Below, in pieces: positions 7,191 through 58,820 of a stretch of 64,000 bases of DNA. Source of the stretch: Voacanga thouarsii. Taxonomy: Eukaryota; Streptophyta; Magnoliopsida; Gentianales; Apocynaceae. The stretch spans positions 2,666,001-2,730,000 of the forward strand of contig JANUWF010001636.1 of NCBI GenBank assembly GCA_026120185.1, read 5' to 3'. Below the pieces are notes generated by a model. It was not told where the DNA came from. It searched no databases and saw only the letters and a list, made by a program, of their open reading frames with translations. A program made the position numbers and the translations under genes. The first letter of the stretch is position 1, and every line of letters begins with the position of its first letter.

Positions 7191-7889
7191 TAGGCCTGTG
7201 CATTCAGTTTTGGATTTTAAAATTTGATTTTTACTTTTTTTTTTAATCAAAATTGAGTCGAACCGAAATTTAAAGAAAATCAATTTAACCGAACTAAAAT
7301 AATTTCAGTTCAGCTTGGTTCAATTTGGTTTTAGACCAAATTTGAATACCTCATTTAATAGATCTATTAACCCAATATAAATTTAAACTCAAATAAGTAA
7401 AGTCTAACATAAACTACAATTCAAATTTAATATAAAATGTAATATAAATTAAAGTCCAAACATTTTAAATATTTGAACCAAAATTTCAATAGAAAGTTAT
7501 CGTCATTGATGCAAATTACAAAGATGGAGATCTCAAACTCTTTATGAATGGTTTTATTTTGGATAAAATCGAAATGAACCGAGAATCGAATAAAATCGAA
7601 TTGAAATAACCGAAACCAAACAGATTGTTTTTAAACAAAAAACATAATTTAAAGAAATAAATAAATAACCATATTTTAATATTAATTATTTTTTAAATTT
7701 TAAAAATATAATTCGATTGTCGATTTTCTAATTTTTTATTTCAAAAAAATTAAAAATCGAATCGAATTTTTATATAAATTCTAAAACTGAGTCAAATCAA
7801 AATGAATTTTATTAAAATCAAATCAAAAATCAAAATTTAAATCTATTCAGTTCGATTTTTTAATTTAAATTAAATAATGAGCACCCCTA
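7191..7889. mobile_element. hAT-like non-autonomous element, family A copy 1
   Basis: It begins TAGGCCTGTGCATT and its right end reads inward as TAGGGGTGCTCATT. Along its length it is clearly similar to 14028-14669, sharing for example TATAAATTTAA, AAGTAAAGT and ATGCAAATT blocks in the same order. Its left edge is only 10 bp from the right edge of the neighbouring hAT-like MITE. The flanking 8-mers match at about 5 of 8 positions, consistent with an old insertion. Confidence 0.55.
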
Positions 7890-8433: not shown

Positions 8434-8797
8434 AGTTATGAATATATTAAATTAGTGGAAGAAATTAGTAGAAGTTTCAATAATTAATAAAGGCTCCATT
8501 AATTATTAATTTATATGAATTATTAAAGAATATTTTTATGGATGTCCACCATTTAGTGGAGACACCGCTAATTAAGATTAGTGGAAGATGATGTATGCCA
8601 TGATATATTCCACTAATTAGAGCTCTATAAATAGAGCTATTCTCTAAACTTGTAATACACCATCATTTTTGTGAAAGAAAGATTAGAGAAAATTGTGAGA
8701 GAAAAGAAAGAGAAAAATTCTTGTGCAAAGAATAGTTAGAGTTTTATTACTGTGTAGTGTGAAGATTTTATTTTAACACTACCCAAATTTTATAACA
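8434..8797 (+). repeat. 5' LTR of copia copy 1
   Basis: 364 bp. The first base of the expected TG is mutated to A, and it ends in CA. A TATAAATA box at 8626-8633 sits inside a short palindrome. Confidence 0.93.
8626..8633 (+). promoter_or_regulatory. LTR TATA box
   Basis: TATAAATA within AGCTCTATAAATAGAGCT, a near-palindrome conserved in all LTRs of this family in the window. Confidence 0.55.
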
Positions 8798-8898
8798 CGT
8801 TATCACCCCGAGTCTCTACCGCTACAAAAGCTAGAAGACTAAGCACGAGTCTCTACCGTTACACAAGCCAAAAGACAGGTACGCGTTTATTAATCTCT

Positions 8899-9942
8899 AT
8901 GGCTAACCTAACTAAACTCGAATTTGTAGCCCTTGATATTTTTGAAAAAAATTATATGTCACGGGTTCTCGATACAGAAATGTATCTAAATGTTGAAGGC
9001 TTTAGTGAAACTATTCAAGCAAATAATAATGCATCTGCACAACACAAGGCTAAAGGTTTGATTTTTATTCGTTGTCATTTCGATGAAAATTTGAAAATAG
9101 AATATCTTACCGAAAAAGATCCATATGTCCTGTGGGTAAATTTAAAAGAAAGATTTGACCACCTGAATATAGTCGTACTACCAACTGCACGGTATGAATG
9201 GTTACACCTGAGGTTGCAAGATTTTAAAACCGTGAATGAATGTAACTCCGCGCTGTATAAAATTACTTCTCAGTTAAAATTATGTGGAGAAAAAGTGATT
9301 GATGAAGATATGTTGGAGAATACATTCTCCACCTTTCATGCCTCGAATATTGTCCTGCAGCAACAATATTGAGAAAAATGGTATACCAAATTTACAGATT
9401 TAATTACTGCCCTCCTTATTGCAAAGAAAAATAATGAGTTATTATTGAGAAATCATGAAGCCAAACCAACTGGCTCAGCAGCACTCCCAGAAGTAAATGC
9501 TATTGACTCCAACAGAAACCGTCGCTATAGTCGTGGTTGTGGTTATGGTCGTGGACACGCTCGATATTTCCCTTATCACAATCATAATCAAACTGTGAGA
9601 AATACTGGCCACCTGAAGTGGAACAGAAAAGATCACAATGAAAAAGAAAAAGAAATGAAAGAAAATTATGAGGATACATGTTATAGATGTGGCATGAAAG
9701 GTCATTGGTCACGTACCTGTCGTACGGCTAAGCATTTAGTTGAATTGTATCAAGCTTCATTGAAAAATAAAAATGTGGAAGCAAATTTTTCTCAACATCC
9801 AGTAAATGATGCTACAGATGATGATATTGATCCTGAAGATCTTAATATCAATATTACACATATGGATGTATCAGATTTTTTTGAACACCCAGACGGTAGG
9901 ATAGACCATTTAATTGGTGATGGTAGTGTCCAAAAGAACTAA
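8899..9942 (+). pseudogene. copia copy 1 gag (nucleocapsid) with internal stop
   Basis: The frame starts at ATG 8899 and encodes a copia-type Gag, the structural protein of the virus-like particle. It is interrupted by TGA at 9370-9372 and then continues in the same frame to 9942. The C-terminal part has a basic, Arg/Gly/Tyr-rich stretch and a CCHC zinc knuckle, CYRCGMKGHWSRTC (about 9679-9720). The stop fits a CGA to TGA change in a conserved basic segment. The frame ends at 9940-9942, before the protease, which lies in another frame. Confidence 0.85.
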
Positions 9943-10026
9943 AAGCCTCACCATGATATTTTTGTATTTTCATTATATTCTAATAAGATTTACGTTTACA
10001 TATATATATATATATATTTGTATCCA

Positions 10027-13000
10027 GATGGTTGTTGTTAATGATGATGTATGCATTATTGATAGTGGAACTACACACACCATACTAAAAAATGAGAAAT
10101 ATTTTTCTGATATCAAAATGGAAGAAATAAATATTTATACGATAAACAGTAGTACAAATGTGATTGAAGGCTCCGGAAGAGCTAGTATATTGTTGCCTGA
10201 AGGAACAATACTCATTATTGATAAAGCACTATTTTCCTCAAAATTCAGAAGAAATTCATTGAGTTTTAAAGATATCCGCAGAAATGGGTATCGTGTTGAA
10301 ACAAATGAGGAAAATGGGATTGAGTATCTTTATATTACTCAAATTCATTTGGGTAATAAATCTGTATTAGAAAAACTACCATCTTTTTCTATTGGCCTAT
10401 ATTTTGCAAAAATACGTACAATTGAAATTTATCATCTCGTAAACCAGAAGTTTACTGATCCTATTACTTTTAGCATTTGGCATGACCGGTTGGGTCATCC
10501 GGGATCTACCATGATAAGAAGAATTATTGAGAATACACATGGTCATCTATTAAAAAATAAAAGGATATTGATATCAGAAAAATTCGCATGTACTTTGTGT
10601 TCTCTAGGAAAATTAATTGTTAAACCATCACCAGTAAAAGTAGGAGCTGAAAGTCCTACATTTCTCAAATGGATTCACGGAGATATTTGTGGACCTATTG
10701 ATCCACTATGTGGACCGTTCAAATATTTTATGGTCTTGATTGATGCATCATCCCGATGGTCATATATATGTTTATTATTTACTCGCAACCTGGCATTTGC
10801 GAGATTACTTACTCAAATAATTAAATTACGAGCACAATTTTCTGACCATCACATTAAAAATATCCGTTTGGATAATGCTGGTGAATTTTCATCACATGCT
10901 TTTGATGCATATTGCATGTCAATTGGAATTAATGTTGAACATCCTGTAGCTCATGTTCATACACAAAATCGTCTCGCTGAATCTTTTATTAAACGATTAC
11001 AATTAATTGCTAGACCATTATTAATGAAAACAAATCTCCCAACATCTATCTGGCGACATGCTATTTTACATGCTGCAGCACTTGTACGTATAAGGCCAGC
11101 TAGTTATCATAAATTCTCTCCTTTGCAATTGGTTTTTGAGTCAGAACCAAATATTGCTCATTTAAGAATTTTTGGGTGTGCTGTGTATGTTCCAATTGCA
11201 CCAAACCAACGTACAAAGATGGGTCCTCGAAGAAGAAAGGGGATATTCATTGGATATGATTCTCCCTCTATTATCAGGTATGTTGAACCCCTGGCAGGAG
11301 ATGTATTCACAGCAAGATTTGCTTGTTGTCATTTTGATGAATCATTATTCTCTAAATTAGGGGGAGAACAAAAACAGCATAAAAAGGATCTTGCTTGGAT
11401 AACATCATTAAATTATCTTGATCCGCGCACAAGTGCATGTGAACTTAAAGTTCAAAAGATAATTCATTTGCAAAGCATTGCAAATCAAATGCCAGACGCT
11501 TTTGTTGACTCCAGAAGAGTTGAAAAATCGCATATTCTAGCTATAAATGCTTCTATTCGAATTGAAGTTCCAGCAGAACAAAATATTATACATATAGCTG
11601 CTAAGTCAAAAGCACGCCAGAAGCATAGCCGACCTCTTGGGTCCAAAGATAAAAATTCTCAAAAGAAAAGAGGATTAACTGATCCAGAAGATCATATTGA
11701 AGAAGAGAATGATAAAGACCAAGAGAAAATTGATGACAAAGAACCAGAAGTTGATGAAAGTAACACTGAAATTTCTATCAATTATACCACTTCTGATATA
11801 AGTTAGAATCGGATATAAACTGTTATTGATAATATATTTACATACAATATATCTCTTGATGTTACACAGGATAATGATGATTCTAAACCAATATCAGTTG
11901 ATGAATATCGGCATAGAAAATATTGGCTACAATGGAAAGATGCAATTCAATCGGAGTTAAATGCACTGACAAAACGTAAAGTCTTCGGACCTGCAGTTCG
12001 AACACCAGAAGGTGTAAAACCTATTGGTTACAAATGGATATTTGTGCAAAAGCGCAATGAAAAGAGTGAAATCATATGATATAAAGCGCGATTAATAGCT
12101 CAAGGTTTTTCACAAAAACTAGGTATTGATTATGATGAAACTTATTCTCCTATTGTTGATACTATTACACTCCGATATCTTATCAGTTTGGCAGTACATA
12201 AAAAGATAGATATGCGCTTATTAGATATTGTCACTGCTTACTTGTATGGAAATTTAGAAAATGATGTTTATATGAAAATCCCCGAAAGATTTCATATGCC
12301 TGAAGCATATAAACATTTTTCTCTTGAAAATTACTCCATCAAGTTGTAGAAATCATTATATGGCCTGAAGCAATCTGGGCGCATGTGATTCACTCGTTTT
12401 AGTGAATATTTATTAAAAGCGGGATTTAAAAATGACCAGGTATGTCCATGTGTTTTTATTAAGAAATTTGGTTCTAAATTTGTGATATTAGCTATATATG
12501 TTGATGATATTAATCTCATTGGAACTCCTGGAGAACTCCAATAAACAATTGATTATTTAAAAAGAGAATTTGAAATTAAGGATTTTGGTAAAACCAAATT
12601 TTGCCTTGGTTTACAAATTGAACATCTGGAAAGTGGAATATTTATTCATCAATCAACATATACAACAAAAGTATTAGAAAGATTTTACATGGATAAAGTA
12701 CATCAATTGAGTATTCCAATGATCGTCCGGTCATTAAATGTGAATAAAGATCCTTTCCGACCTTAAGAAGATGATGAAGAACTCCTTGGTCCTGAAGTAC
12801 CATATCTCAGTGCAATTGGTGCATTGATGTATCTTGCTAATAATACACGACCTAATATTGCTTTTGCTGTCAATTTATTAGCAAGATTTAGTTCTTTACC
12901 AACACGACGACATTAGAATAGAATTAAACAAGTCATTCGATATCTCCAAGGTATAATTGATATCGGATTATTTTATTCAAATAAAACCAACCCAACATTG

Positions 13001-13519
13001 ATAGGTTATGCAGATGCTGGTAATTTATCTTATCCACATAAAGCACGTTTTCAAATGGGTTATCTATTTACATGTGGAAATACTATTATATCATGGCATT
13101 CTACAAAACAATTTATAACAACTACTTATTCAAACTATGCTGAAATTATAGCCATTCATCAAGTAAGTCGAGAATGTGTATGGCTAAGATTCATGATTCA
13201 TTATATCTGAGAAAATTGTGGATTATCATCGATAAAAGATATTCCAACTCCTCTTTATGAAGACAATGCAGCTTGCATAGCTCAATTATGAGGAGGATAT
13301 ATTAAAAGAGATCGGACATAACATATTTTACCAAAATTCTTCTTTACTCATGAACTCCAGAAGAAAAGTGAAATTGATGTGTTACAAATTCGGTCATATG
13401 ACAACCTCGCAGATTTTTTCACAAAGACTTTACCGACTGCAACATTTGAGAAATTGAAATATAAAATCGGTATGCGTCGGTTTAAAGATTTAAAGGAATC
13501 ATATCATCAGGGGAAGTAA
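10027..13519 (+). pseudogene. copia copy 1 pol (protease, integrase, RT, RNase H), degenerate
   Basis: The protease motif D-S-G-T-T lies near 10060. The integrase zinc-binding region has WHDRLGHPG, and the catalytic core keeps all three acidic positions (Asp in IHGDICGP, Asp in RLDNAGEF, Glu in NRLAESF). This first part is open to a stop at 11804-11806. Reverse transcriptase follows with KARLIAQGFSQ and the YVDD catalytic box (about 12499), then RNase H to the double stop at 13517. The RT/RNase H half has stops near 12079, 12347, 12386, 12542, 12764, 12914, 13208, 13289 and 13319. The polyprotein is non-functional. An AT-rich spacer (9943-10026) separates gag from pol. Confidence 0.9.
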
Positions 13520-13642
13520 TAAACAGACATATAGAATAGTGTACTCTTTTTCCTTCACTAAATTTTTTCCCACTGGGTTTTTATCTAATAAGGTTTTAAC
13601 GAGGCATATTCTTTATGTAATGGATGGACATCCAATGGGGAG

Positions 13643-14006
13643 TGTTATGAATATATTAAATTAGTGGAAGAAATTAGTAGAAGCTCCACTAATTAATGGA
13701 GGCTTCACTAATTATGGATTTATGTGAATTATTAGAGAATATTTTTATGAATGTTCACCATTTAGTAGAGACACCACTAATTAAGATTAGTGGAAGATGA
13801 TGTATGCCATGATGTATTCCACTAATTAAAGTTTTATAAATAGAGCTATTCTCTAAACTTTTAATACACCATCATTTTTGTGAAAGAAAGATTAGAGAAA
13901 ATTGTGAGAGAAAAGAAAGAGAGAAATTCTTGTGCAAAGAATAGTTAGAGTTTTATTAGTGTGTAGTGTGAAGATTTTATTCTAACACTACCCAAATTTT
14001 ATAACA
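13643..14006 (+). repeat. 3' LTR of copia copy 1
   Basis: 364 bp, TGTTATGAAT to TTTATAACA, aligned with 8434-8797. Confidence 0.93.
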
Positions 14007-14027: not shown

Positions 14028-14669
14028 TAGGGGTGTTGATCCCGTTTTTGATTCGATTTTTTATTTTTAAATTTATTTTTTAAAAAAAGAATTGAACTGA
14101 ATTAAAATTAAAAAAAATCGATGGTTCGGTTCGATTTTAAACTGAATTTGAATATCTCCTTTAGTAGATTCATTAATCTAATATAAATTTAAGTCTAAAC
14201 AAGTAAAGTTTAATATAAATTACAATTCAAATGTAATATAAAAAATATAATATAAATTTCAGTCCAAATATTTTAAAATTTTGAGCCAAATATTTTAGTA
14301 GAAAATTATGATCACCTATGCAAATTGCAAAGATGAAGATCTTAAACTAAATTACTAATGGCTTTATTTTAGACAAAACCAAACAAAATTGAACCGAATT
14401 GAAATAATCGAAATTGAACATAAATTATTTAAAACATCATAATTTATAAAATTAATTAATTAATGAATAACATTTTAATATTAATTATATATTTTAAAAT
14501 TTAAAAATATACTTCAATTTTTCGATTTTTTATTTTAGAAAATAAAAAATCGAATTGAATTTTTATATAAACGTTAAACCGAACCGAATTTCATTAAAAC
14601 CAAATTAAAAATCAAAATTAGAATCGATTCGATTCGATTTTTAAGTTCAAACCGAATAATGAATACCTA
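14028..14669. mobile_element. hAT-like non-autonomous element, family A copy 2
   Basis: It starts TAGGGGTGTTGAT and ends AATACCTA. The interior matches 7191-7889 block for block. Flanks share TTTAGA on both sides (near 14019 and 14672), a possible decayed duplication. No coding capacity. Confidence 0.55.
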
Positions 14670-20958: not shown

Positions 20959-23900
20959 ATGGGAGCTCTGGCTCCGGTGTCTCATTGGCTTCCGCAGGAT
21001 GATCTTTTGCTAAAAAACGCCGTTGAGGTAAACACTGAGAAACCTTACATACACCATGGTTCAATTTGTTTTTCTTTGGTGAGGAGAGTGGGGAGATTAT
21101 GTGGAGACAATTTTGGTGACCTTATTGGGAGTCGTTTGCTTTATTTCTGGGCTTTGCTTGTTCTTGAATATTGATTCTGTGTTCTGTTCTTCCTGGGAGT
21201 TTTAAATAAAGGTTTTGCTGCCTTTCAAGTATTTGATGGTTGGTATATCATTCTAAAACCAAATTTGGTTCTTGCAGTCTGTTTTAAGTTGATTAATGCT
21301 TGAAAGAGGCCTCTTTTACTTTTTATCATTCTGTAATTTTTATGCATTTTTCGGGGTGGTTTATGATTGGGACTTCAAGAATGCAGTTTCTTGTGTTGCA
21401 TGCAGCGTTTATGCCCACGTTGGTTCTCTCCTCTTGTGGGTTTATTTTGTTGTAACTTTTCTTTGCTGAATGGTGAATAGAAACTTATTCGAAATATAAA
21501 GTCTTTTAAGTTAAAGGAAAACGAAATTGGAGTAACTCTAGCAAGATAACTTCAAAGCTCGACGAATACTGGCATTGTGAAAGCCAAAAGTTACCTAATT
21601 GAGATTTTTCCTTAACTTGTATAGACTTGCCTATGAAATTAAGGATGTTGGACTGTCGTCTTATATCAACAGGCCATTTGGGCTGTTGGTGGAGGTGGTT
21701 TTTTTTGGCTCGTCATTGGTTTAACTGTGTTGTATAGTTTAGTCTTTGACATTGCTAAATGGCACCTTAACATTTGACATTGGTCGAGTGTTGCATGAAG
21801 CAAATACTATGCTCTAATTCATTACTGAGATTTTGTCAATTAATGGCGTGGAGGAAAGGTTTGAAGAGATGAAACATGATTTTGAGAGCGGCAAACATTT
21901 GATGCTTATTTGTACAATTGACAATTTTCTAAATTTTGAAAATTGCATTAGGGGAAGATCTCTGCAACGATCCTAATCTTAGTGTTGCCTTTGGTTATAT
22001 TAGTTTTAAAACAGTTAAATTGAGCAGTACGAAAGCAATCGAGCATTTTTATTAGTAATGGTACTATGTTAGTTGTTTGGGTATTAAAAGAAGTCAAAGT
22101 TATTGAATCTTACATTTCTTCTTTTGTCATCTGAAAATGTATAAATTAACCTCACCTAAGTCACATTTGTTTGTTGATGTGGGGAATGGAAGGATGTAAA
22201 GTGTAAAGTTGAAATGAACCAGACAGTGATTTTCTCCTTGCTTTTTGTTTCTAGTCAAAGAATTTGTTATTCTTGAAATGCCTATAATTTTAACATGATA
22301 GAAGTACTTGTCCCCTTCCTTATCCGTAAATATCATGCACCAAAATGTTTTGCTACTTTAGCACCCTTTTTATCATTAACTCAAGATTATCATAGGCAAA
22401 ATGCTTCCTTCTAAGTGAGATGTTCAAAGTTGTACCAACCCATGCATCATTTTCCATTTTTGTTACCACCAATATCCCAGACCATATCTTAAAATTATAG
22501 TTGTAAAGAGATTGGTCACAAACAGAAACATAAGTCCACCATTGCAATGGTGCCCAAAAGTGGGAGAGAGAATTTAAGCTAGTGCTTTCCACTTGCTCGA
22601 CCACTCTTACAATAGTGACAATTGTTGCATGTGGCTCCATGATAAACTTGTCTTTTGGATCCTTACTTCCGTTTTCTCCTCTTCTGCTGTAGGCTGGTGC
22701 TTCTTTGGAATCCCTAGCTAAAGGTGCCATTCGATTTTCACAAAGGTTTACAGTTCAAGAACTGCAAGATCGCTGGTATTCTCTTCTTTATGATCCAGTT
22801 GTTTCTGCAGAGGCATCAGTGCACATGATTGAGATTGAGCATTCTGCGTCAACTGCAAAATTTAATAAAGCGGCAAAATGTATTCCAGGGAAGAGAAAAT
22901 CAGAAAGTGTTCGTAGATGTTATTCTGCTATGCGTAAAAGAATTTGCAGTGAACCTTTTGACTCGATGAATATTAGTTTTCTTGGTGGACCAGGTTCTTT
23001 TAATGCTGGAAACAATGATGAACCTTTATCTTCAGGTTGCATTTTTGGAGATCAAGTTTCAGATTATTTTGGAATTCAAGAATCCAATTTTGGTGTCATG
23101 CATCATCCCTTCCCAGAACTTCAGGCTACTGGGGCTGGTTCCTCTAGTGATGATGTTTCCACAAGTGCATTTTGCACTGGATTACATGATAATGATGAGT
23201 GTAAATCTCTTGGTCAGAATTGCCTGCCTCTAAATATTTGTCCATCTTTTGTTGATAATATTCCTCTGATAGGTGATCGAAGTATAGTTAAGGAGTTTGA
23301 CCAATCTAATGGATCGGAAACCTGTGACTTATTTGAATCCATGCATCTAGATATAAAATCCTCACCTATTTTTAACGAAATTAATGATAAAGAGGGTAAT
23401 GTGTGTTCTGGATTTGAAAGAATGGTCTTTGACTCATCACCTTCAGATTGTGGCACCTCAATACCCAATTTTGGTTATTCTCCTCCTATTTCACAGATGC
23501 CAACATGGAGGGCAGTTGAGGATTTATCTCATTCCACACTGGCTGATGTTCTTGGAGAGACAAAGGACCATGGAGGAAATGACCTTGTAATTTCAGATGA
23601 TTTTGACGCAAATGAATCAAGTATACCAGGATATGATTCTGTGAACGCAAAATCTGTTCTGAAAGATCAAATGCCAGGTGATGGCATGGAAGGTTCAGTG
23701 ACAAATGCTGAGGAGTACTTTGCAGAATTATCAAATTCTTTGCTTAACTTTACCACTGAGGATGATTTGCTTTTTGTGGATGCTGATGGGAGGGACATGA
23801 TTGAGCAGTCTTACATTGAAAACTTAAGCTCACTTCTGTTGGATCCTCCTGACAAAAGTGACACCCCAGATCTAGGTATAGCTGAGGTTGCAGTTGCTCC

Positions 23901-26900
23901 AAACGAATGCCTTAGTAATTCTCTTAGTGCTGCACTTCCCGCTGGGTCAGGTGACCAGGAGCAGTATTATTGTAATGATCGGCTCATTGTTTGGGGTTCA
24001 GAGGCTCAAAAGCTGTCATCTGCACTAACTGTGAATCCTAACTTTCCTGAGTTACGCAATGGAGTTATTTGCTGCACATTGAACACTGAGGATCCTGAGA
24101 TTCCTAACAATGATGATGTTTTTCTTCCCATCCGATTGCCCTCATTATCTATTCCTTCTATGACCCATACTAAATGTGATGAATCTTATTGTCCAATGCT
24201 CTCCTCTGTCAAGGAGTTCTCTGATAGTCAAAAAGCTACTGACAGAGCCCTCATGAGGAGTGAACAAAGTAATTATTCACAGTTACATGTTCCTCGACAG
24301 ATGATAGGGTCATCATTTCAATTTGAAATGGGTTCATCCTGTCAAATTGATGAGCATCGGGTAAAATTTGAACCACTTAGCAATGGTGCCCGGCATGTAA
24401 AGGTGACTACTTGTGAAGGTCCTGCTGTAGTTAACTCAGCATGTTCCAATAACAAGTGTACGGTCCCTGGGTCTGGGAAGGAGCTACTGAAAAAAATTGA
24501 ACAGCCAAAGAACCTCAATCATAACTCTGGTGATTCTCAAATACAGAAGCATGCTCAAGCTTCAGATCCCCATTTGAGATTTCAGAATAATGCTGCTGAT
24601 AGTAAGCAGGATGTAAATGGTACATCCAATATTCAAAACCATGAAACCTTACATGCAGAATGCTGCTTAGCTGCTGAGTCACTTGCAGTTCCAACTGTGT
24701 CAGATCAGGAGGAGCTTTCTTGTGAGAGTGATGAAGATGTACCTTATTTTTCTGATGTTGAAGCAATGGTAAATTGTCCTTGTCTTCTTGTCATCCTGAT
24801 TAGTTGCAGTTATAGTAATTGGCCCAATATCAAGTCCCTGCTTAATTACTTTTTGCAGATCCTTGATATGGATTTGAGTCCTGATGACCAGGATATGTAT
24901 TACGGTCCAGGAGGTAGCTCTCCAATTCCTTATACTGTGTGTTGAATGCCTGATGCGCCATTTTCCTGCTTTTTATTGAAAGATATGAATATTTGTCTCA
25001 ATTTGCATACTCTAATCTCTGAGTTTTGTAAAGGTAAATAACTTTGCTGTAACTGGTATTAGTATCCAGAAACAGTTGAATTTGGTAAATGCTTAATCAT
25101 GATGCTGCTGAAATGGCAAAAATCTTTTGGTTTTTTCTTCATATCCATTAAATTTTCAGCTTCTTGGTGTTTTATCTTAGCCTGTGTTGTCCATTTTTCA
25201 AGGCAAACATTCATTTTTATTTTTTTCCATGTTGCAACTAATTTCTTTATGTCTGGTTAGCTATAATTTACAATTGGTTGCATTGGCTTAATTTGCAGTC
25301 TTAAGGTACCAGCATGAAGATGCCAGGAGAACACTAATCCGGCTGGAGCAGGCTGCTGATGCTTGTTTGCAGAGAGAGCTTTTGGCTCATGGTGCATTTG
25401 CAGTTCTATTTGGCCGGCGCTCAAAGCATTTTATAAAGAAGACTGAGGTATAGAGAATCTGTCACTCACTTCCACAGCTTTCCTCTGCCTCCTCTCTCCC
25501 ATCCTCTCCAAGGAACAAGGAAACAAAAATAAAGGGGAAAATACACACACACACAAATGTTGAAAATTGCTTGCCACTTTGTATTTTAAGCTTGTAGCAA
25601 CAATGATTATCTGAGATTTAAGACATGATAGAAGTGCTATGGAAAAAATGTACTTACCAAATTTCAGGCAACCAATACTTTTGGCTGGAAGATGTAAACT
25701 AGAAATGACAAAGCCAAAAAAAAAAAAGAGTGAGAATGCAGTTTTCTTTTTCAATACTAACAATCCTGAAAGGTGCTCCTATTTTGAAAATATTTGACAG
25801 ACTCAATCTGAGGAATCCTGACCATTAGATGTTAAACTATTGTTTAATGGCTTAAAAAAGATCTAAGAAGTTGTCTTAAATAATTGTTTGAAAGAACAAT
25901 TATGTAAGGTTTATTTCAAATTAGAGAATTACTTAGTTTTTTGCTCAAAGATAGACTGCATCTTAAGATACCCATTCTTTTCCTTTCAGGTTGGGAATCT
26001 TTACCATAAATTGTCGTTTCCAATGTTATTGGGAAAAAGTTAAACAATTTGGAATTTTGAAAACAATAATGGTTTAGTTTGTGTATTGATATATATACAT
26101 ATATTTAAGAAATTACTAGGATATTCTGAATAGAACATGCTGTTTGCAGGTCTCCATGTTATTTAGAGATGGTGTTTTCTGGCATGTTATTTGGGGATGT
26201 TGTTTTGTACTGCCAGATTTAGTTTGATTGAGTTCACAATTGTTTCTTTATGCTTCTTCTTTCTAGTTTTCAATTTTTATTTGGTATTTAGGTATTACTA
26301 GGGAGAGCAACTGAAGATGTCAAAGTTGATATCGATTTGGGAATGGAAGGCCATGCTAATAAGATTTCTCGACGGCAGGTATATTTTCACTTATGATTTT
26401 CACTAGCACATTTGTTTGCTGATCCTCTCATTTATCCTACTTAAAGCCTGGGATAATAACCTTGACAGAGATCTTATTGTTTTACAAAGCCCATTTATAG
26501 TCCTAATCTTATTCACTTGGAGTGCTGCTGAGTTCTTAGCTATCAATGCTCGATTTTGTTTTTAATTGGGATATCAACAAAATTTCAAGTTCTCATGAAA
26601 TAGTTCCTTTGTCATGTTACCCATCTTCATTGAGATAATTGTCGCATGTTAATCTGTGTTCTTGTGTCCTGTTAAGTTGTTTGATTGCTTCTAACTGCTG
26701 ATCAGGCAACTATAAAGATGGACATCAATGGCTCATTCCATTTGACAAACCATGGGAAATTTTCAATTTATGTAAATGGCAAAGAAGTCGTCCCTGGGGA
26801 AAACGTTGGCCTTGTTTCAGGGTGTTTAATTGAGGTATGCTACCTCTTTTGCAAACAGAATCAGTTTATTCGTCATCTTGAAGACTTTCTATCCAACATT

Positions 26901-27779: not shown

Positions 27780-28518
27780 AAGCCAAAGTTGGGATCAAAA
27801 GGTGTTTGCTAGCTGTTGAAACTAGTTGGTATCTGAGAGGTGCCAAATCCATTGTCTTTCTGCGGCTCCTTTCAGACACGTTTTTCTTCTCCTCTGGTTA
27901 GCAACTTTCTTTTCACCCTGTAATCCTCTTTTGGTTCTATACAAGAATCAGGTTAAAAAAAATCCAATCGTTTTGATGAATATTTTGGTTCTTGTATTCC
28001 TTTTTCTAAGTAGCATAACCAAACCAAGCAAGAAACAAAAATATACTGGTTGCCGAACAGTCTGGGTGTCATCAGGATGTTTCAGAAACCTCTGCATTAT
28101 TATATACAAGCCCAAAAGTTGTAAAAGTATCAAATAAATGGCTGATGGTAGTTGTTGGTGAGCATCGGCTGCAATAGGCCTAATTGCAAACCTCGTAAAA
28201 TGCAACCCAATAAAAAATTATGCATTTCTTTTAACAATCTGAGGACCACACCCCTAGTGTAAAGTGCTTGTTCCCCAGTCCTTCCTCATCGCTCCACTCC
28301 TACATTACCTAACATATTTTAACAGTTTAAATTACACCGTCCTCCCTTGAAGTTTAGCATAAGTATATATTTCCTCTTATGGTTTCAAACTTACATTAGC
28401 TTCCCTCGAGTTGAAGTCACAGTTTAGCACTTTCAATAGGTACATAATGTAATGATTTGAGGGCAAAACTCGTTAAGGACGAACCAAATTTTTAAGAAAT
28501 TTGAGAGAAATACCTAGT
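27780..28518. other. 3' flank of FHA-domain gene, up to the chimeric retroelement
   Basis: The 3' UTR presumably lies within the first few hundred bases. The rest is intergenic with no gene recognised. Confidence 0.55.
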
Positions 28519-28885
28519 TGTTATAAAATTAGGGTAGTGTTAGAATAAAATCTACACACTACACACTAAGAAAATTCTAACTATTCTTTGCACAAGAATT
28601 TCTCTTCAAACTTCTCTCTTTCTTTCTCTCACAATTCTTTCTCTAATCTTTCTTTCACTAATCTTTCTTTCACAAAATGATGGTGTATTACAAGCTTAGA
28701 AAATAGCTCTATTTATAGAGCTCTAATTAGTGGAATATATCATTGCATACATCATATTCAACTAATCTCAATTAATGGTGTCTCCACTAAATAGTGGACA
28801 TCCATAAAAATCTTCTAATAATTCATATAAATCCATAATTAGTGGAGCCTCCACTAATTAATGGAGATTCCAATAATTCATAACA
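28519..28885 (-). repeat. 3' LTR of chimeric copia element
   Basis: 367 bp, nearly identical to 33569-33935. The next bases on the plus strand are the complement of the polypurine tract (CTCCCCCTT). Confidence 0.95.
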
Positions 28886-29042
28886 CTCCCCCTTGGATGT
28901 CCATCCATACATAAAGAATATGCCTCGTTAAAATCTTACTAGATAAAAACCCGAGTGGGAAAAAAATCTAGTGAAGGAAAAAGAGTACACTATTCTATAT
29001 GTCCATTTATTACTCCCCCGATAAGATGATTCTTTTAAATCT

Positions 29043-31178
29043 TTAAACCGACGCATACTCGATTTTATATCTCAACTTCTCAAATGTTGCGATCGGTAAA
29101 GTCTTCGTGAAAATATCTGCGAGGTTGTCACATGACCGAATTTGTAGCACATCAATTTCACCTTTCTTCTGGAGTTCATGAGTAAAGAAGAATTTTGGTG
29201 AAATATGTTTTGTCCGATCTCCTTTAATATATCCGCCTCGTAATTGAGCTATGCAAGCTGCATTGTCTTCATAAAGAAGAGTTGGAATACCTTTGATTGA
29301 TGATAATCCACAACTTTCTCGGATATAATGAATCATGGATCTTAGCCATACACATTCTCGACTTGCTTCATGAATGGCTATAATTTCAGCATGATTTGAA
29401 GAAGTAGCTGCTATAGATTGTTTCGTAGAACGCCATGATATAGCAGTATTTCCACATGTAAATATATAGTCCGTTTGAGAACGTGATTTATGTGGATCAG
29501 ATAAATAACCAGCATCTGCATAACCTATCAATGTTGGACTGGTTTTATTTGAATAAAATAATTCGAGATCAATTGTACCTTGGAGATATCGAATGACTTG
29601 TTTAATTCCATTCCAATGTCGTCGTGTTGGTGAAGAACTAAATCTTGCTAATAAATTGACAGCGAAAGCAATATCAGGGCCGTGTGTTATTAGCAAGATA
29701 CATCAATGCACCAATTGCACTGAGATATGGTACTTCGGGACCAAGGAGTTCTTCATCATTTTCTTGAGGTCGGAAAGGATCTTTATCCACATTTAATGAT
29801 CGGACGATCATTGGAATACTCAATGGATGTGCTTTGTCCATGTAAAATCTTTTTAGCACTTTTGCTGTATATGTTGATTGATGAATAAATGTTCCACTCT
29901 CCAGGTGTTCAATTTGTAAACCAAGGCAAAATTTGGTTTTAGATTTCGAATTCTCTTTTTAAATAATCAATTGTTTCTTGGAGCTCTTCAGGAGTTCCAA
30001 TAAGATTAATATCATCAACATATATAGCTAATATCACAAATTTAGAACCAGATTTCTTAATAAAAACACATGGACATACCTGGTCATTTTTAAATCCCGC
30101 TTTCAATAAATATTCACTAAGACGTGTGAACCACATGCGCCCAGATTGCTTCAGGTCATATAATGATTTCTGCAACTTGATGGAGTAATTTTCACGAGGA
30201 TAATGTTTATATGCTTCAAGCATATGAAATCCTTCGGGGATTTTCATGTAAACATCATTTTCTAAATTTCCATACAAGTAGCGAGTGACAACATCTAATA
30301 GGCGCATATCTATCTTTTCATGTCTTGCTAAACTGATAAGATATCGGAGTGTAATAGCATCAACAACAGGAGAATAAGTTTCATCATAGTCAATACCTGG
30401 TCTTTGTGAAAAACCTTGGGCTACTAATCGCGCTTTATATCGAACGATTTCACTCTTTTCATTGCGCTTTCGCACAAATATCCATTTGTAGCCAACGGGT
30501 TTTACACCTTACGGTATTCGGATCTGCAGTCCGAAGACTTCACGTTTTGTCGGTGCATTTAACTCCGATTGAATCGCATCTTTCCATTGCGACCAATCTT
30601 TTCTATGTCGACATTCATCAAGCGATATTGGTTCGGGATCATCATTATCCTGTGTAACATCAAGAGATATATTGTATGCAAATATATCATCAATAACGAT
30701 TTCTATCCGATTCCAACTTCTACCGAAGTGGTATAATTGATAGAAATTTCGAGTGTTACTTTCATCAACTTCGGTTCTTTGTCATCGATTCTTTCTTGGT
30801 CTTTATCATTCTTTTCTTCAATATGATCTTCTGGATCATTTAATCCTCTTTTCTTTCGAGGATTTTTATCTTTAGAACCAAGAGGTCGGCCATGCTTACG
30901 GCATGCTTTTGGCTCAATGACTATAGGTATAATATTTTGTTCTACTTGGAACTTCAATTCGAATAGGAGCATTTATAGTCGGCATATGCAATTTTGTTAC
31001 TCTTCTAGAGTCAACAAAAGCGTACGGCATTTGATTTGCAATGCTTTACAAATGAATTATCTTTTGAACTTCAAGTTCACATGCGCTTGTATGCGGATCA
31101 AGATAATTTAATGATGTTGTCCAATCACGATCTTTCTTGTCTTGTTTCTGTTCTCCCCTTAATTTAGGGAATAATGAT
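29043..31178 (-). pseudogene. Truncated pol of chimeric copia element (integrase tail, RT, RNase H)
   Basis: Read on the minus strand, homology to copy 1 starts near 31178, at the linker after the integrase core, and runs through reverse transcriptase (KARLVAQGFSQRPG; YVDD box at about 30018-30029) and RNase H (ADAGYLSDPHKSRSQTD; final ADIFTKTLP). RT is open at 30475-29939, but a short deletion just after EFEI shifts the frame, and further breaks lie at about 29680 and 30510. Even apart from the missing integrase it cannot encode a working polyprotein. The RNase H segment 29696-29043 is uninterrupted, much better kept than in copy 1. Confidence 0.88.
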
Positions 31179-31179
31179 T

Positions 31180-31348
31180 TCATAAGAGAATAAGAAAATA
31201 AATATAAGAAAATGATGACAAGCAGGAAATGCCAAGAAAAATATCTATTTTTTTTCACTCTTCCCGTACCGACTTTTCATCTTCCTCTCTTGTCTTTTCT
31301 TCTCCTCCGACCCTCTACCTACCATCTACCTCTTCTTCTTCTTCATAC

Positions 31349-31393
<45 letters not shown>

Positions 31394-31451
31394 ATATATC
31401 TCGGTTATCGATCATTAGTAAACATCAAAAACAAAAATCACAAAGCGAGAT
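31180..31451 (+). promoter_or_regulatory. Captured RKD upstream region with (TA)n
   Basis: This sequence has no counterpart in copy 1. It starts where integrase homology ends and contains a CT-rich tract (31255-31345), a (TA)n run (31352-31389) and the leader up to the RKD ATG. It probably represents the promoter-proximal/5' UTR part of the donor gene. Promoter activity is inference. Confidence 0.45.
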
Positions 31452-32686
31452 ATGGAGACTCGTAATTCATTTGAGACATGGTCAAATTTTGACTTAGTTT
31501 CACGGCGAGATGTTGATGTATTTTCATTTCCAAACCAACCGCTTTTGCCTAATTCGAACACAGAAGATTTTGATATGTTTTCCTTTCCAAACCAACCGCT
31601 TCTGCCTAGTTCGAACGCAGAAGATTTTGATATGTTTTCCTTTTCAAACCAACCGCTTCTGTCTAATTCGAACGCAAAAGATTTTGATATGTTTTCCTTT
31701 CCAAACCAACCACTTCCTCCTAATTTCAGGTGAGATACCTTTGATGGCTTCCATTTGTTTTTAGTGTGTTTGATAATGAAATTAAACTCTCTTTTGGTTT
31801 GTTTTTTATGTAAATCGATGGAAGTTTTGAACATACCGCTTTGGACCAAGTTGATCTCGCTCCTACAAGAGACTGTTTTTGATCATCGTTCCTCTTGATG
31901 CTATTCCTTTGAATGAGGATATGCTTGTGCATGATCCATTCTACTCTCTAATGGATTTTGAACAAAGCCGTAATATGATTCCGAGGTTATTATCCATTTA
32001 ACTATGGATTTTGAATAGTATTACCTTTATCGATATTATTTTATTTTTCTAGGAGAAATAATGAGTGGTCTTGACAACGAAGTCGGAGTAAGTACTCATG
32101 AAATGCATAATATCGAAGTTCAAGATATTATTGCGGACAAAATTCTTGGGGAGAAGAAGATGATTAAGAGGCGAGAGAGAGAAGAAGGGCAATAACTCCC
32201 GAGACACTATCAAGAGAAACAATTTCGCAGATACTTTTACCTACCAATCAAGAGCGCAGCCAAAGAACTGAATATTGGCATAACCCGTCTCAAGAAAAGA
32301 TGTAGGGAGTTAGGAATTCGTCGATGGCCTCATAGGAAATTGGTGAGCTTGGAGACCATAATCAAGAATGTCCAGGTTCTCTCTCATACATACTTATTAT
32401 TTGCAAGTATGAAACTATGAAAGATTTATAAGTAAATAACCGATGATATCACTTCGATTTACAGGATATGCAAAATAAAGAAGAAGGAGGACATATGGCT
32501 GAGAAGAAATTAAAAGAAGCCATTGCGATACTGGAATGTGAAAAACAGTTGGTGGAAGAAAGTCCTAATACGCAGTTAGAGGACCAAACACAGAAATTGA
32601 GACAAGCATGCTTCAAGGCCAAATATAATAAGAAATATAATAAACTTAAGGAGATCATAAAATCTCAAGACTCATTTCGCGAGTAA
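31452..32686 (+). pseudogene. RKD-type RWP-RK transcription factor gene captured inside a copia element
   Basis: Best model has four exons: 31452-31729, 31872-31969, 32053-32375 and 32465-32686. Exon 1 starts METRNSFETW and holds a 19-residue tandem repeat. Exon 3 carries the RWP-RK DNA-binding core: SAAKELNIGITRLKKRCREL then GIRRWPHRKL. Exon 4 has an acidic/basic coiled segment ending in the RKD hallmark KLRQACFKAKYNKK. RKD proteins are nuclear regulators of egg-cell and embryo identity in plants, and RWP-RK genes are tied to nucellar polyembryony in citrus. All introns are present, and the gene runs antisense to the host retroelement. Exon 3 has a one-base loss near 32187-32190 and a one-base gain at about 32231. 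The stretch between (TLSRETISQ) reads in another frame and the main frame meets TAA at 32193. It is thus a probable pseudogene, unless these are sequence errors. Confidence 0.85.
31521..31729 (+). repeat. 57-bp in-frame tandem repeat in RKD exon 1
   Basis: About 3.7 units (31521-31577, 31578-31634, 31635-31691, then partial). Each encodes a version of FSFPNQPLLPNSNTEDFDM. Units differ by a few bases, and the last is cut by the splice donor. Confidence 0.9.
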
Positions 32687-32690
32687 TTTT

Positions 32691-32945
32691 ATGGCTACTC
32701 TGCTGCTAGTCTCGATCGCTGGCTCAAAAGGGAAAGAAAAGGAGGAGGATGTCGAAAAAGAGGAGTTGAAGTCCATAATTACTAATTGTTTGTCGTCCTC
32801 TAATGTAAATATTGAAAAAGAACAATTACAAACCTTCATCTTACATTTGTCAGCTCAATTACAAAAGAGCAACTATAAGCATGTATCATTAAGTTCATAT
32901 GAACACTAGTGCTATGAATAAAAGATGTGATGCTTATTATTAATG
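32691..32945 (+). other. RKD 3' region with small frame and polyadenylation signal
   Basis: An ATG at 32691 opens a 72-codon frame (to 32909) rich in Lys/Glu, starting 5 bp after the RKD stop. It could be chance, or a former C-terminal extension of the gene. AATAAA at about 32917 marks a likely polyadenylation site. Retroelement gag homology resumes by about 32950, so the donor gene's 3' end was included in the capture. Confidence 0.5.
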
Positions 32946-33535
32946 GAAATATCTTTTTCCCTTATTATCTTTTCTGTTCCACTTGGTGTGCAGTATTTCT
33001 CCGTGATAAGGGAAATATCGAGTGTGTCCATGACCATAACCACGGCCACTCGCCACAACTACGACTATAACGATGGCTTCTGCTGGAGCCAACGACATTC
33101 ACTTCAGGAGTCTTTGTTGAGCGGTTCATCTGGCTTCATGATTTCTCAATAATAACTCATGTTAAAGTTGTCAATTTTGGATACCCTTTTTCTTGATATT
33201 ATTACTGTAGAACATGAAAAGTGGAGAATGTCTTCTCCAATATAACTTCATCAGTAACTTTTTCTCCGTAAAATTTTTAACTAAGATATAGTTTTATACA
33301 TTACGGAGTTCACGGTTTTACAATCTTGCAACTTCAGGTGCAACCATTCATACCGTGCGAGTGGGTAGTACGACCATCTTCGAGTGGTCAAATCTTTCTT
33401 TTTATCCACATGACATATGGATCTCCTTTTTTTAGCATTTAGATGCATTTCGTATGACATATAATTTTTTTCGTAAATATCAAGGGCTACAAATTCGAAT
33501 TTAGCGAGATCAATAAATGCGTACTTGTCTTCTGG
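32946..33535 (-). pseudogene. gag 5' remnant of chimeric copia element
   Basis: On the minus strand it aligns with copy 1 gag from just after the start codon to about 9655, including the Arg/Tyr/Gly-rich segment (near 33000-33090). It lacks the start ATG and the zinc knuckle and has several internal deletions and stops. It breaks off at the RKD junction. Confidence 0.8.
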
Positions 33536-33568
33536 CTTTAATAACGGCAGAGACTCGTGCTGATAACG

Positions 33569-33935
33569 TGTTATAAAATTAGGGTAGTGTTAGAATAAAA
33601 TCTACACACTACACACTAAGAAAATTCTAACTATTCTTTGCACAAGAATTTCTCTTCAAACTTCTCTCTTTCTTTCTCTCACAATTCTTTCTCTAATCTT
33701 TCTTTCACTAATCTTTCTTTCACAAAATGATGGTGTATTACAAGCTTAGAGAATAGCTCTATTTATAGAGCTCTAATTAGTGGAATATATCATTGCATAC
33801 ATCATATTCAACTAATCTCAATTAATGGTGTCTCCACTAAATGGTGGACATCCATAAAAATCTTCTAATAATTCATATAAATCCATAATTAGTGGAGCCT
33901 CCACTAATTAATGGAGATTCCAATAATTCATAACA
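33569..33935 (-). repeat. 5' LTR of chimeric copia element
   Basis: 367 bp, two differences from 28519-28885. Followed by the CTAGT target duplication at 33936-33940. Confidence 0.95.
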
Positions 33936-33940
33936 CTAGT

Positions 33941-42434: not shown

Positions 42435-43729
42435 ATGAAGATCCAGTGCGACGTCTGTGACAAAGACGAAGCATCAGTCTTTTGTGTTGCAGATGAGGCT
42501 GCACTCTGCAACGCCTGCGACCACCGTGTTCACCATGCTAACAAGCTTGCGGGAAAGCATCAACGTTTCTCTCTACTCCAACCTTCGGCTAAACAAGTCC
42601 CTCTCTGCGATATCTGTCAGGTATCTAAGTTGTCTTGAAGGTAAATCACAGGAAAGCCATCTTAATTTGAGTCTTGAATCTTGATCATGGTTTTTTTTAT
42701 TGGTTGTGGTGCATACAGGAGAGAAGGGCCTTCTTATTTTGTCAACAGGATAGGGCAATCTTGTGCAGAGAGTGTGATATTCCGATACATAAAGCAAATG
42801 AGCTTACTCAGAAGCATAACAGATTTCTTCTCACAGGTGTCAAGCTCTCAGCAAACTCTTCCCTTTATTCACCACCATCATCATCATCGCCGGCAGAAGC
42901 TGCCTCCTCTGCATCTCTGAGCAATGTTTCCGATTGCGTCCCCAGTCTTCAGTCTCAAAACCCAACAAATAGGCCCGAACCATCTAACCACACAATTTCC
43001 AAGAATCCTAACCCACGTACTATATCGAACGCTACAACAGCAATTGCAAACACGATCACTGAAGCACCACCTGCAGCAACAAATGACAAAGGTACACCTA
43101 TTCATGGCCAAATGATGAATGGTGGAGGGGCTAATGTTCCGACAAGCAGCATATCCGAGTACTTGATAGAAATGCTACCCGGGTGGCACGTTGAAGACTT
43201 CCTCGATCCGTCTTCTCCTTTTGGTTTCTGTAAGGTTTGCATTGATCCTATGATGTTCTCGTACTAATGATTTCGTATTTGAGATCAGACCACTTAATGA
43301 TTCAGCACTAACTGTGGATCACTAAGTGGTCTATCCGAATCAAGGAATTTCCGTCACCAGTACTGATAAGAAGGTTTGCCAATAGTTTTGAGCGGAATAT
43401 CTTTGTTTTCTTGATTGTAGAGCACTGGAGACCATGATATGATACCATTGTGGGATGCCGATCTAGAGAGCAACAGCAACCTGAGCTCATTCTCAGCAGA
43501 AAGTACAGGTCTCTGGGTCCCCCAAGCTGCAGCTCCTTCACATCCTACTCAAATTCAATCGTTTTCCACTTCGAGCATGGGTTTTGGTGGGCAAATCAGC
43601 TTTAAAGAGTCTAAAGACATCTCAAACATCAAGTCCAGCAGAAAATGGACCGATGACAATTCTTTTGCGGTTCCACAGATCAACCCATCTTCCACTGTCG
43701 GCTCCAAGAGATATAGAACTTTATGGTAG
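42435..43729 (+). CDS. Double B-box zinc-finger protein, BBX20/BBX21 type
   Basis: Three exons: 42435-42620, 42719-43234 and 43421-43729, GT-AG, all phase 0, giving 336 residues. B-box 1 occupies about residues 5-47 (C5, C8, C17, C25, C28, H33, H42). B-box 2, about 58-100, has CDICQERRAFLFC across the first junction. No CCT domain follows, which puts it in the double-B-box, CCT-less structural group IV. The Ser/Pro/Asn-rich middle is followed by SEYLIEMLPGWHVEDFLD and a C-terminal KRYRTLW, as in BBX20/21/STH2 proteins. Those act in the nucleus with HY5 and COP1 to promote seedling photomorphogenesis and HY5 target genes; the role here is by family. All zinc ligands are kept and the gene appears intact. 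Confidence 0.9.
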
Positions 43730-51025: not shown

Positions 51026-53209
51026 TGTTGGAATATATGTCCCTTAGATTAGATTATTTGATGTAATTATCGAATTTATTAATAAAAAAATTTATTCTCA
51101 AAATTTATTTGTGAATTTATATTTTATTTGTATATGATTTTTTGTTTGGAAATGATCCAATATGTTTAAGTAAGTGATCCATGTGAATGGTGATCTTTCA
51201 CAATAAGATATGGATTACAGATTACATAACATATAAATGTTTATTCTTAACTGATTGATAAAAATGAGAATTTCATCATGTATAGGTTATTGTGTTATGA
51301 ATTCCAAATGGGGAATGACTTACCTTTAGTCAGTGAGTAGTCCACCCGCTTCATAGCATGAGCGTATTTCGAATACGTAGAACAGGACCTGTAATAGTAG
51401 TTTCTGAAAGTACTATTTAAAATAAACCTAAACTGTTACTGCTACAGCGTAAACTAATATTCTACCACTTAAGTATAAGTTGGTGGTCTGACGAAGTTAG
51501 AAACATATACTTTGATATATTGTAGTTGAGGTTATTTTGTAGAACCAATATATTTTTATGTTGAATATATATGACTAGTTAGTTAAGATAGACTTGTACA
51601 AGATAACTTCTACGCTATATCACCCATTGTTACTGTTCAAATGATCTAATTATCCAGGGCCTTAGGGAACATGATTTGAATGTTTATTTTAGGGTAGCTC
51701 CCTTGAAAAGTAAAAACATTTCAGGAGTCATGGATCATTGAATTAGAGGTTTAAGAATGGTAGATGTCTATTAGAGATGTGTTAGTATACTATTCCTCTC
51801 TAATTGCACGGCGATGCATAGATGGGTATTTTAGTCATTACACTTGTAGGTCAAAAACTTTGCTAACGCAGCATTATCTTTGGGGTTAATATTTTCTTAT
51901 GGTGATATTAGAAAATATTAAAATTGCAAAATATATCTATTTATATAGTAGAAGTATTTTGGTCATTTTAGTAGCCAATACGATGTGTCTTTTGGTCCCC
52001 GAAATGACCCTTAAGTCATGAAAGATTTGGGTTAAGAAATTGGTCTTGATAATTATGGGTTTTTATTTTATTAGTCTAATTTATTATTATACTAGAATAA
52101 AATAAAAGGTCCGAGAGAGAGTATTAATTTCATCTAGTTTAATTGGTTAATTAATTATTCAGGGCCTAATGCCCAAATTGAATAATTAAAAAATTAATCT
52201 GGAACTAGATAAAAGGTACTCCCTCCGTCCCATAATATAAGTCGTTATGGACTACTTTTGCTATCCCAAATTATAAGTCGTTATGGACTTTTCATTTAGG
52301 TTTGAAAGCTATTTTTACATTTTTATCCTTATTTATTATTCTCTTTCTATTTCATCTCTTCTCTTATTTCCAAGACATTTAAATAGGGATGTTTTAGGAA
52401 GAAAAAATATAAAGTCACATTATTTTTAGGAATTTTAATATATGTGAAATTAAGTCAAACGACTTATATTATGGGACGGAGGAAGTATGGAATTTTATTT
52501 GGTCTATTTGGGTTTGTTATTATTTATTGAGCTGTTTAATAAAGTTCAGAAAATAAATAATTGAGATTTATTATTTATGGGAGTTCAAGCCCAAGAATAA
52601 ATAATTTATTTGGCCCAATGAATAAGACCAGAGTAAAATAAAATTTATATAAAAAATAAAAATATTAATTAATTGATTGATTATTAATTTAATTACTTAA
52701 TAAAAATTAAAAAAACAACAACAACACAGGATGGAACTCATGTTGTTTCGCGTGCAGGATAACAGAAAGCATGGATGCTTTCTGTTTGCACGCGATTGTA
52801 TTCTCTCTAGGGGATGGATTGAAATTGATGTGAAATGAATTGAAGGTGTAGTGTTTTTTGCGCTATTTTGTGTGTGGATAATTCACAGAAGCAAAAGAAA
52901 AGAAAACAGAAGCCTTTGGAGTTCAACATCAATTTACAGAAAACCAAACCCATTTCAAGGCTTATCAAAAGCCAAACTTTAAACCTTCACCGACTGTGCT
53001 ACGGGCACCATTTCAGAAGATCAAAAGTTTCGCGTGGATGAGACGTAGTAGACGTTTGCAAAGACGTGAGCCACTAGCCTCGAATATCCATATACAGACA
53101 TCTACACCAGTTTGAAGAGGGCCACTCCATCACAGAGGTAAAATTTTCGTTTTCCTAACATGCTTTCGTTTTGATTATTTTTGTCATTTTAAGCCTTCAT
53201 TTGGTATCA
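51026..53209 (+). repeat. 5' LTR, second copia family
   Basis: Starts TGTTGGAATATATG and ends CCTTCA, two bases before the primer-binding site. Interrupted by a Stowaway MITE at 52219-52485. Confidence 0.92.
52219..52485. mobile_element. Stowaway MITE nested in 5' LTR
   Basis: Starts CTCCCTCCGTCCCATAATAT and ends GGGACGGAGGAAG, perfect Tc1/mariner Stowaway termini with TA duplications (52217-52218 and 52486-52487). The 3' LTR has an empty site at about 60010. Confidence 0.9.
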
Positions 53210-54895
53210 GAGCTATGGTTTAGCAAATGTAGGAAGTATGTTAGGCTTAACTAAAATAAGAAAATATTTATTTTGGTTAAAATCTGTGATATTTTGTATT
53301 TATTGATATAGGTAGTTTCACTATAAGTTTCGCGAGTGGAAGTATAGGAACAATGTATTTTACTTGCTTTTATAGATATCGTGTAAACCTAGTGTTTTTA
53401 AGGGTATATGCGTTTGTTTAGATGATTTTTTATCAAAAATGGTAACAAATCACGTGCACAAAAGTTTTGAAATGCAGAGAAAATGTGGTGAAGAAGATGA
53501 TCTATGAAATTGAGCCGTGAACCGAGTCGACTAGGATTGAGAGAGGAGCCGCGAGGAAGGCTTCCTCGCTGAAGCCATCATCAAGGAAGCTACTGTTGCT
53601 TTCTTCAAATTGCATTTTTGCAATTTCGCAGCCGCGGTCAGCAATTTTGACCGCGGCAACCTGCCCAGATCCGGCCCATGGGTTTGCCCATGGTTCGTGA
53701 TCCAGTGTGGCGGGTACATGGACCCGACCGAATTTAATATATATATATTGGCTTTTGATCATATACCAGGCGAAATTATTTTTATTGCAATAATTAATAT
53801 TCTATGAATATTTTGCATGAAAAATAATAGTAAAGGAAATTTTAGGATTAAACAAGACCATTAATTAATTAATGTGTTTAATTCTATTATTTTGACACTT
53901 AGGTTAAAAGAATAAAAAAGTATGAAAATATTTACAGTTTTCTAGCATGCTTATTTCTTTTTGTACCCTATGTGCGCGTTTTCTCAAAGACCAAAGTTTT
54001 TGAAAATTTTTGACAAAGAAAAATATTTTTTTAAATCAAATGGTTAATTTTAATTCGGACAAAAATTAATTCTTAGATATTTTCTCAAATGATTTTATCA
54101 TTGACATAGAAAATATATTGAATTTAGATATTTTTGTGAATTAAAATAGAAAACCATTTTGATTAAATTTTATCAAGAGAATTTGTTTTTGTCAAAAACT
54201 TGAGATCAAAATCTCTCGAAAATTTTATTGAATTTTTTTTGAAATTATTAAATTTATTAACTTAAATAAAATTAATTCATGAAAAAATTTCTTAAAATGT
54301 ATAAACATTGATATAGAAATTTTTATGAGTTTAGAAATTTTATTTTGAGTTAAAAGAAAATTTAATTGAAATTTTCAAAATATATTTTTCAAGAAAAATC
54401 CTTATTTTAAATACTAAGTGGGAGAGGGGTTCCAACGGCCCTACGTTTTCCATCATGATCCTCATTAGAGATTTTGGGTCCCCTCGCATTACCCTGAGAG
54501 TGAACTCGTATAGGATGGGGATACCACAAGGATCTAGAACTAATAGATGGATATAATTAATAACTCGGGACATATGCTATGATCGGCCAGCCCACGTTGG
54601 AGGTTATAGTGTAAGGTATGTCCATATAAAATAAGAAGAAACAGTCATCCCACGATGGAGTTATCTTTTAGATCATTACCTAGAAGGAAAATTAATTTGT
54701 GATAGTTAATACACTTAGTTTAGAAAGTTGTTAATCTTCCTAAAAAATTGTGTCAGTTTTTCTAAGAACCAAATTAATTATATTAAAGATAATAGTGATA
54801 GGGTTAACTATTATAGGATTTAATATGAGGATAAAGTCATAAATTATTTTGTTTATTTATAAATTGAATTTTTTTTTATTTTCGATATTTCAAAA
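53210..54895 (+). other. Leader of second copia element
   Basis: Untranslated region between primer-binding site and gag, with no conserved domain. Opposing short frames at 53502-53807 are unassigned. Confidence 0.6.
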
Positions 54896-55675: not shown

Positions 55676-55689
55676 TTTCAGGCAAAAAA

Positions 55690-58804: not shown

Positions 58805-58820
58805 AGTGCAAGTAGGAGAT

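Follow-up and report, generated by a model that had tools for sequence, protein, structure and literature searches.

A copia-type LTR retrotransposon of Voacanga thouarsii bearing an antisense, apparently frame-broken RKD-like gene copy in place of its integrase region

A locus of Voacanga thouarsii raises the question of how an RWP-RK gene came to lie between the LTRs of a retrotransposon, whether it has moved with that element, and what it could still do. The DNA analyzed, referred to here as the window, is a 64,000-base stretch (32.5% GC) of contig JANUWF010001636.1 in assembly GCA_026120185.1 (2,666,001-2,730,000, forward strand), and positions are given within it. The minus strand of the window carries, at 28519-33935, an LTR retrotransposon of the Ty1/copia type. 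The 3′ LTR (28519-28885) and the 5′ LTR (33569-33935) are each 367 bp long with TG...CA ends, and self-comparison of the window places their two differences at 28701/33751 and 28793/33843. The BLAST alignment of the pair, over which 369 bases were compared, ends two bases beyond the LTRs, at 28887 and 33937, since each copy is followed by CT. Directly outside the LTRs lies a perfect 5-bp target-site duplication, CTAGT, at 28514-28518 on the left and 33936-33940 on the right; the frequency with which two random 5-mers from the window match by chance is 0.0020. The initial annotation is thus borne out in reporting LTRs that differ at 2 of 367 sites and a perfect CTAGT duplication at both ends, as it is in pointing to a sister copy at 8434-14006 in the opposite orientation and to an RWP-RK domain on the strand opposite to the element. 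Adjoining the 3′ LTR on the minus strand is a tract read from the sequence, CCAAGGGGGAG (28886-28896), which from its motif we take to be the purine tract. The neighborhood of the 5′ LTR was viewed by eye for a tRNA primer binding site, and no tRNA genes were found in the window.

Between these ends the coding region is only partly preserved. A reverse transcriptase domain of the copia type is present on the minus strand at 29942-30508 (RVT_2, PF07727; 156.7 bits in Pfam), and its frame stops where 11 bp are lacking relative to the sister copy. On the same strand, an open stretch of 219 codons at 29046-29702 gave no Pfam match at E 0.01; its position in a copia pol, together with a familiar motif, leads us to assume that it is the RNase H region. 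The whole of the 3′ part of pol and the non-coding stretch that follows it (28888-31199, minus strand) is shared with the sister copy and contains stops in all three frames. At the other end, a leader and gag remnant (32952-33568, minus strand) is assigned to gag by alignment to the sister, and a Pfam search of the piece 33284-33589 within this region returned no match. An integrase ahead of the reverse transcriptase is absent from the element, the integrase stretch of the sister having no counterpart there.

The sister copy (8434-14006, plus strand) is a copia element without the RKD segment and provides the reference against which these losses are read. Upstream of its reverse transcriptase region, which is itself split over several frames, Pfam recognizes a zinc knuckle (CCHC; 21.1 bits against a cut-off of 20.8), a Pol beta-barrel domain (Pol_BBD, 34.5 bits) that we take as the protease region, a GAG-pre-integrase domain (30.1 bits, above cut-off), an integrase core just under its cut-off (31.6 against 32.6 bits) and an SH3-like domain above cut-off (53.7 bits); its gag match is weak (20.6 bits against a cut-off of 27). 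Between the two LTRs of the sister there are 340 identical positions, 23 mismatches and 1 gap. A perfect target-site duplication was not found around it; within 3 bases of its ends, two pairs agree at four of five positions. Direct repeats at 7316-7880 and 14122-14662 (75.9% identical) flank the sister and possibly represent an older repeat into which it landed. A solo LTR on the minus strand (62588-62954), flanked by the duplication ACTAT, belongs to the same young subfamily as the element, whose two LTRs it matches at 360 and 362 positions. It shows that the subfamily has integrated elsewhere, and looks like the remainder of a recent integration after recombination between its LTRs.

Other features of the window lie apart from this family. 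At 51026-60708 there is probably a second, longer copia-type element, with direct repeats at 51026-53199 and 58821-60708 that start with TGTTGG and align in two blocks at about 87%. The first repeat is adjoined by TGGTATCAGAGC, presumably a primer-site motif, and by eye the interval between the repeats contains open stretches resembling a zinc knuckle, an integrase and an RNase H. About 3.6 kb from the element under study, a 750-codon open frame at 22693-24942 with an MCRS_N match of 39.9 bits is likely to be a host gene, and a B-box zinc finger-like frame lies at 42671-43264 (21.8 bits, under the cut-off of 24.1).

Alignment of the element with the sister by BLAST gives two blocks of homology: one reaches from the 5′ LTR as far as sister position 9647, and the other begins at sister position 11317. 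From the reverse transcriptase to the purine tract, 91.7% of aligned bases are identical when gaps are left out; in the leader and gag, where 618 bases are compared with 850 of the sister, identity is 88% with 270 gap positions. The sister sequence at 9648-11316, about 1.67 kb, is without counterpart in the element, which instead has about 1.75 kb of other DNA at 31200-32951. With the sister stretch have gone the CCHC knuckle, the protease region, the GAG-pre-integrase domain, the integrase core and nearly all of the SH3-like domain. Both edges of the foreign segment, near 31200 and 32951, come from this alignment; a short stretch at the 31200 edge also resembles the sister by eye, and that edge could shift inward by up to about 25 bases. 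These edges are close to those given at the outset (31180 and 32945). The 1.77-kb insert described there is indeed absent from the sister, but it has replaced part of gag, protease and integrase rather than having been added to a complete element. Since the integrase-bearing stretch of the sister has no counterpart in it, the element at 28519-33935 is best classed as non-autonomous, derived from a copia family, and not as a complete copia element. Without protease and integrase it would therefore have depended on proteins made by other copies. The window shows no intact helper, the reverse transcriptase region of the sister being split over several frames as well.

The captured host segment reads on the plus strand, antisense to the element. 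A piece of it, 32196-32375, matches the RWP-RK domain (PF02042) on that strand with E 1.3e-21 and 76.7 bits against a cut-off of 29.3, and allowing the match to run across a frame change raises the score to 83.1 bits and moves the profile start from 5 to 2. Pieces 32168-32299 and 32064-32192 gave no Pfam match. As to the type of RWP-RK gene, we call the cargo RKD-like: the look of the domain (its RWPHRK wording) and a putative C-terminal hallmark are those we take to be typical of RKD proteins, and PB1 is absent from the Pfam matches up to E 1 for two pieces downstream of the domain, although the segment ends soon afterward and a PB1 domain may have been cut off. A PB1 domain at the C terminus marks the NLPs, according to the portion of PMC11202622 that was available. 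The RWPHRK string had no match in the literature text searched. Among viral contigs, 25 stretches matched the pattern of the RWP-RK piece and one that of the reverse transcriptase piece, of which none was confirmed in either case; solved structures yielded no convincing match (three up to E 10, the best at E 0.19).

In the gene model, which was built without an RKD orthologue, four exons lie on the plus strand. Exon 1 (31452-31729) is open, lacks a Pfam match in the piece 31422-31730 and contains 3.8 copies of a 57-bp tandem unit (31508-31725). Exon 2 (31825-31985) has inferred limits and a weak 3′ splice site, and its frame appears to change near 31880. Exon 3 (32053-32375) holds the RWP-RK domain, of which 32217-32351 lies in one frame, and shows apparent frame changes near 32070, between 32165 and 32193, and near 32230. 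Exon 4 (32465-32686) ends in TAA. The three introns of the model, of 95, 67 and 89 nt, are kept with GT...AG borders. The segment thus extends from the start codon to beyond the last exon, with about 250 bp of upstream flank that includes an (AT)n microsatellite (31352-31399, from a repeat scan). The description of a whole RKD gene holds for this extent, introns included; the reading frame, by contrast, appears from the model to be broken in about four places, one of them inside the RWP-RK domain. The frame change within the domain is the firmest of these, while the number of four is an inference because the model was made without an orthologue; exon 2 with its 3′ splice site is weak. No donor RKD locus was found elsewhere in the 64-kb window, where the next best tblastn hit of the cargo peptides had E 1.0.

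When the element arrived can be estimated from its LTRs. Substitution rates of 1.3e-8 and 7e-9 per site per year convert two differences in 369 bases to 0.21 and 0.39 My, respectively; the former rate was also used in PMC10011142. The element and the sister differ by 21 indels and 191 mismatches, and with this ratio two LTR differences correspond to 0.29 indels expected in 983 exon bases since integration, for which the probability of three or more is 0.0034 and that of four or more 0.0002. Even at 7.2 LTR differences, the upper limit for a count of two, 1.05 indels are expected, and the probabilities rise to 0.091 and 0.023. Because so few indels are expected since integration, the RKD copy was probably frame-broken before the present integration. 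The breaks may have arisen in the lineage of the element, or the donor may have had them beforehand, as the argument from age applies to both alike; a donor that was itself a pseudogene would explain them equally, and they would then say nothing on when the segment arrived. The stops in all three frames of the element’s pol fit movement in trans. What the target-site duplication and the similar LTRs date is the arrival of the element; by themselves they do not place the RKD segment aboard at that time. The proposed recent move as one piece is accordingly well founded as regards a recent integration; movement of the chimera as a unit is likely, and stays an inference because one copy with these junctions was seen, in a 64-kb window.

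The history that we consider rather probable is that of a non-autonomous copia lineage in which a genomic and probably already broken antisense RKD copy replaced the knuckle-protease-integrase region, which integrated here recently in trans, and whose product would be RNA. In a copia-type element, the zinc knuckle of gag, the protease and the integrase would have been lost, with an intron-containing RKD-like copy coming to lie in their place in antisense orientation. Having retained its LTRs, leader and purine tract, the element could still have been copied and integrated at this site with proteins supplied by intact relatives. If the RKD copy was broken before that integration, no action as an RKD protein would be expected of it; a plausible output is RNA, and transcription starting in the 5′ LTR would read the RKD exons in antisense. 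Spliced RKD mRNA is unlikely as the source of the segment, because the introns are kept and the gene lies antisense to the element. Capture may instead have come about through a template switch to an unspliced transcript of the RKD antisense strand, or DNA repair may have brought the segment into an older genomic copy from which later copies were made. The available sections of PMC13317346 describe abnormal template switches between RNAs packaged together.

DNA repair also underlies the alternative that comes nearest to this history. Plant break repair can copy filler DNA, and an element that had integrated with its own coding region could later have suffered a double-strand break at which DNA of an RKD locus or pseudogene was filled in over gag, protease and integrase, so that the chimera itself never moved. 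The single copy agrees with such an event, as do the kept introns and the loss of element sequence, both of which resemble the outcome of DNA repair. Against this, the 0.21 or 0.39 My since integration leaves little time, and the pol region is broken, probably for the most part from earlier on. The short time and the broken pol make a non-autonomous lineage the simpler history, and we regard later filling of a break as unlikely. A source for the segment in a nested transposon has a different basis. Gene pieces in Pack-MULEs, Helitrons and CACTA elements keep their introns, and an element of one of these kinds might have carried the RKD segment into the copia element; that such elements carry pieces of host genes is noted in the text seen of PMC13317346. 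Within 31000-33200, however, no inverted repeat links the two edges and no duplication occurs at both (17 direct families; the longest 25 of 43 inverted pairs), the weak direct matches that exist being confined to the right edge (D6, 29 nt at 72%; D12, 13 nt; D15, 12 nt). Simple insertion would moreover leave the disappearance of about 1.67 kb of sister sequence unexplained, and carriage by a nested transposon is very improbable.

An artificial join in the assembly could also bring two unrelated sequences together, but on either side of the segment the element is again homologous to and collinear with the sister, within one LTR pair and its target-site duplication, so that we attach very little weight to a chimera of this origin. 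Whether the captured gene could yield a working protein and so raise RKD dosage bears on the state of the cargo rather than on its arrival. About 250 bp of upstream flank is present, exons 1 and 4 and the greater part of the RWP-RK domain are open, and the breaks outside the domain depend on a model made without an orthologue. There is nevertheless a frame change within the domain, and probably three elsewhere, on account of which a functional RKD protein was set aside; we hold it to be barely credible. The suggestion in the initial annotation that the element could alter RKD dosage is weakened by these apparent breaks in the frame, of which one falls within the RWP-RK domain.

Plant LTR elements are well known to capture host genes, and the element of V. 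thouarsii, read as a non-autonomous lineage with a captured RKD-like copy, is another case. The copia element Rider of tomato belongs to this group. Like the present element, maize Bs1 and tomato Rider/SUN are plant LTR elements with transduced host sequence; Rider moved a gene and thereby altered tomato fruit shape (PMC13317346, from the portion available). According to the same portion, Bs1 differs in carrying segments of three genes without full ORFs and in forming a new chimeric gene, and Rider/SUN in that its gene is expressed, whereas the cargo here is antisense and broken. On a genomic scale, 672 genes captured by LTR elements are reported in rice and 1,343 in sorghum, with unique small RNAs on 85 and 812 of the captured genes, respectively (PMC3726574, in the part at hand). 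Those captures are alike in that a pair of LTRs encloses a host gene, and in rice pseudogenes make up an increased proportion of them; they concern other elements and hosts, and the term RWP-RK does not occur in the main text of that paper. RWP-RK genes that overlap intact LTR elements are described for pearl millet, rice, sorghum, and maize in a pearl millet pan-genome study, which dates LTR elements ‘encompassing’ RWP-RK genes (PMC10011142, in the sections available). The likeness is that the genes are associated with, and in the legends ‘encompassed’ by, intact LTR elements; the difference is that the association is one of overlap, the sections available giving no element anatomy, orientation, junction, assignment to RKD or NLP, or status as captured cargo. 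This overlap makes it harder to maintain that an RWP-RK cargo is new, and the earlier wording of gene transduction as ‘rare’ and of an RKD cargo as ‘not described’ looks too strong beside these two partly available studies. In the accessible text of PMC11197308, RWP-RK occurs in the reference list only. Among the matches listed in literature that mostly excludes subscription papers, no title or abstract opening reports an RKD gene inside a copia element.

A meeting of transposable element and RKD gene is familiar from citrus, where a MITE lies upstream of an intact CitRKD1, whereas here a retroelement bears the RKD copy (PMC6090715, in the part seen). Antisense over-expression of CitRKD1 abolished somatic embryogenesis, a result from one transgenic line, and this work indicates that antisense RKD can alter embryo formation (PMC6090715, in the same part). 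Antisense transcripts against RKD are a possible consequence of the V. thouarsii element. The further idea of a multi-copy, mobile antisense RKD cassette, in which transcripts from the LTRs would pair with RKD mRNAs as dsRNA and lower RKD activity in ovules, so that the number of insertions would set embryo or egg-cell behavior (for example, mono- versus polyembryony), is a distant prospect to which we give very little credence. If other copies exist, the element would provide a clean natural case of a transposon in which a master regulator of reproduction is carried in antisense. On present evidence it adds one decaying captured host gene to those already described, and serves chiefly as a warning that such copies could inflate the counts of RKD genes in annotations.
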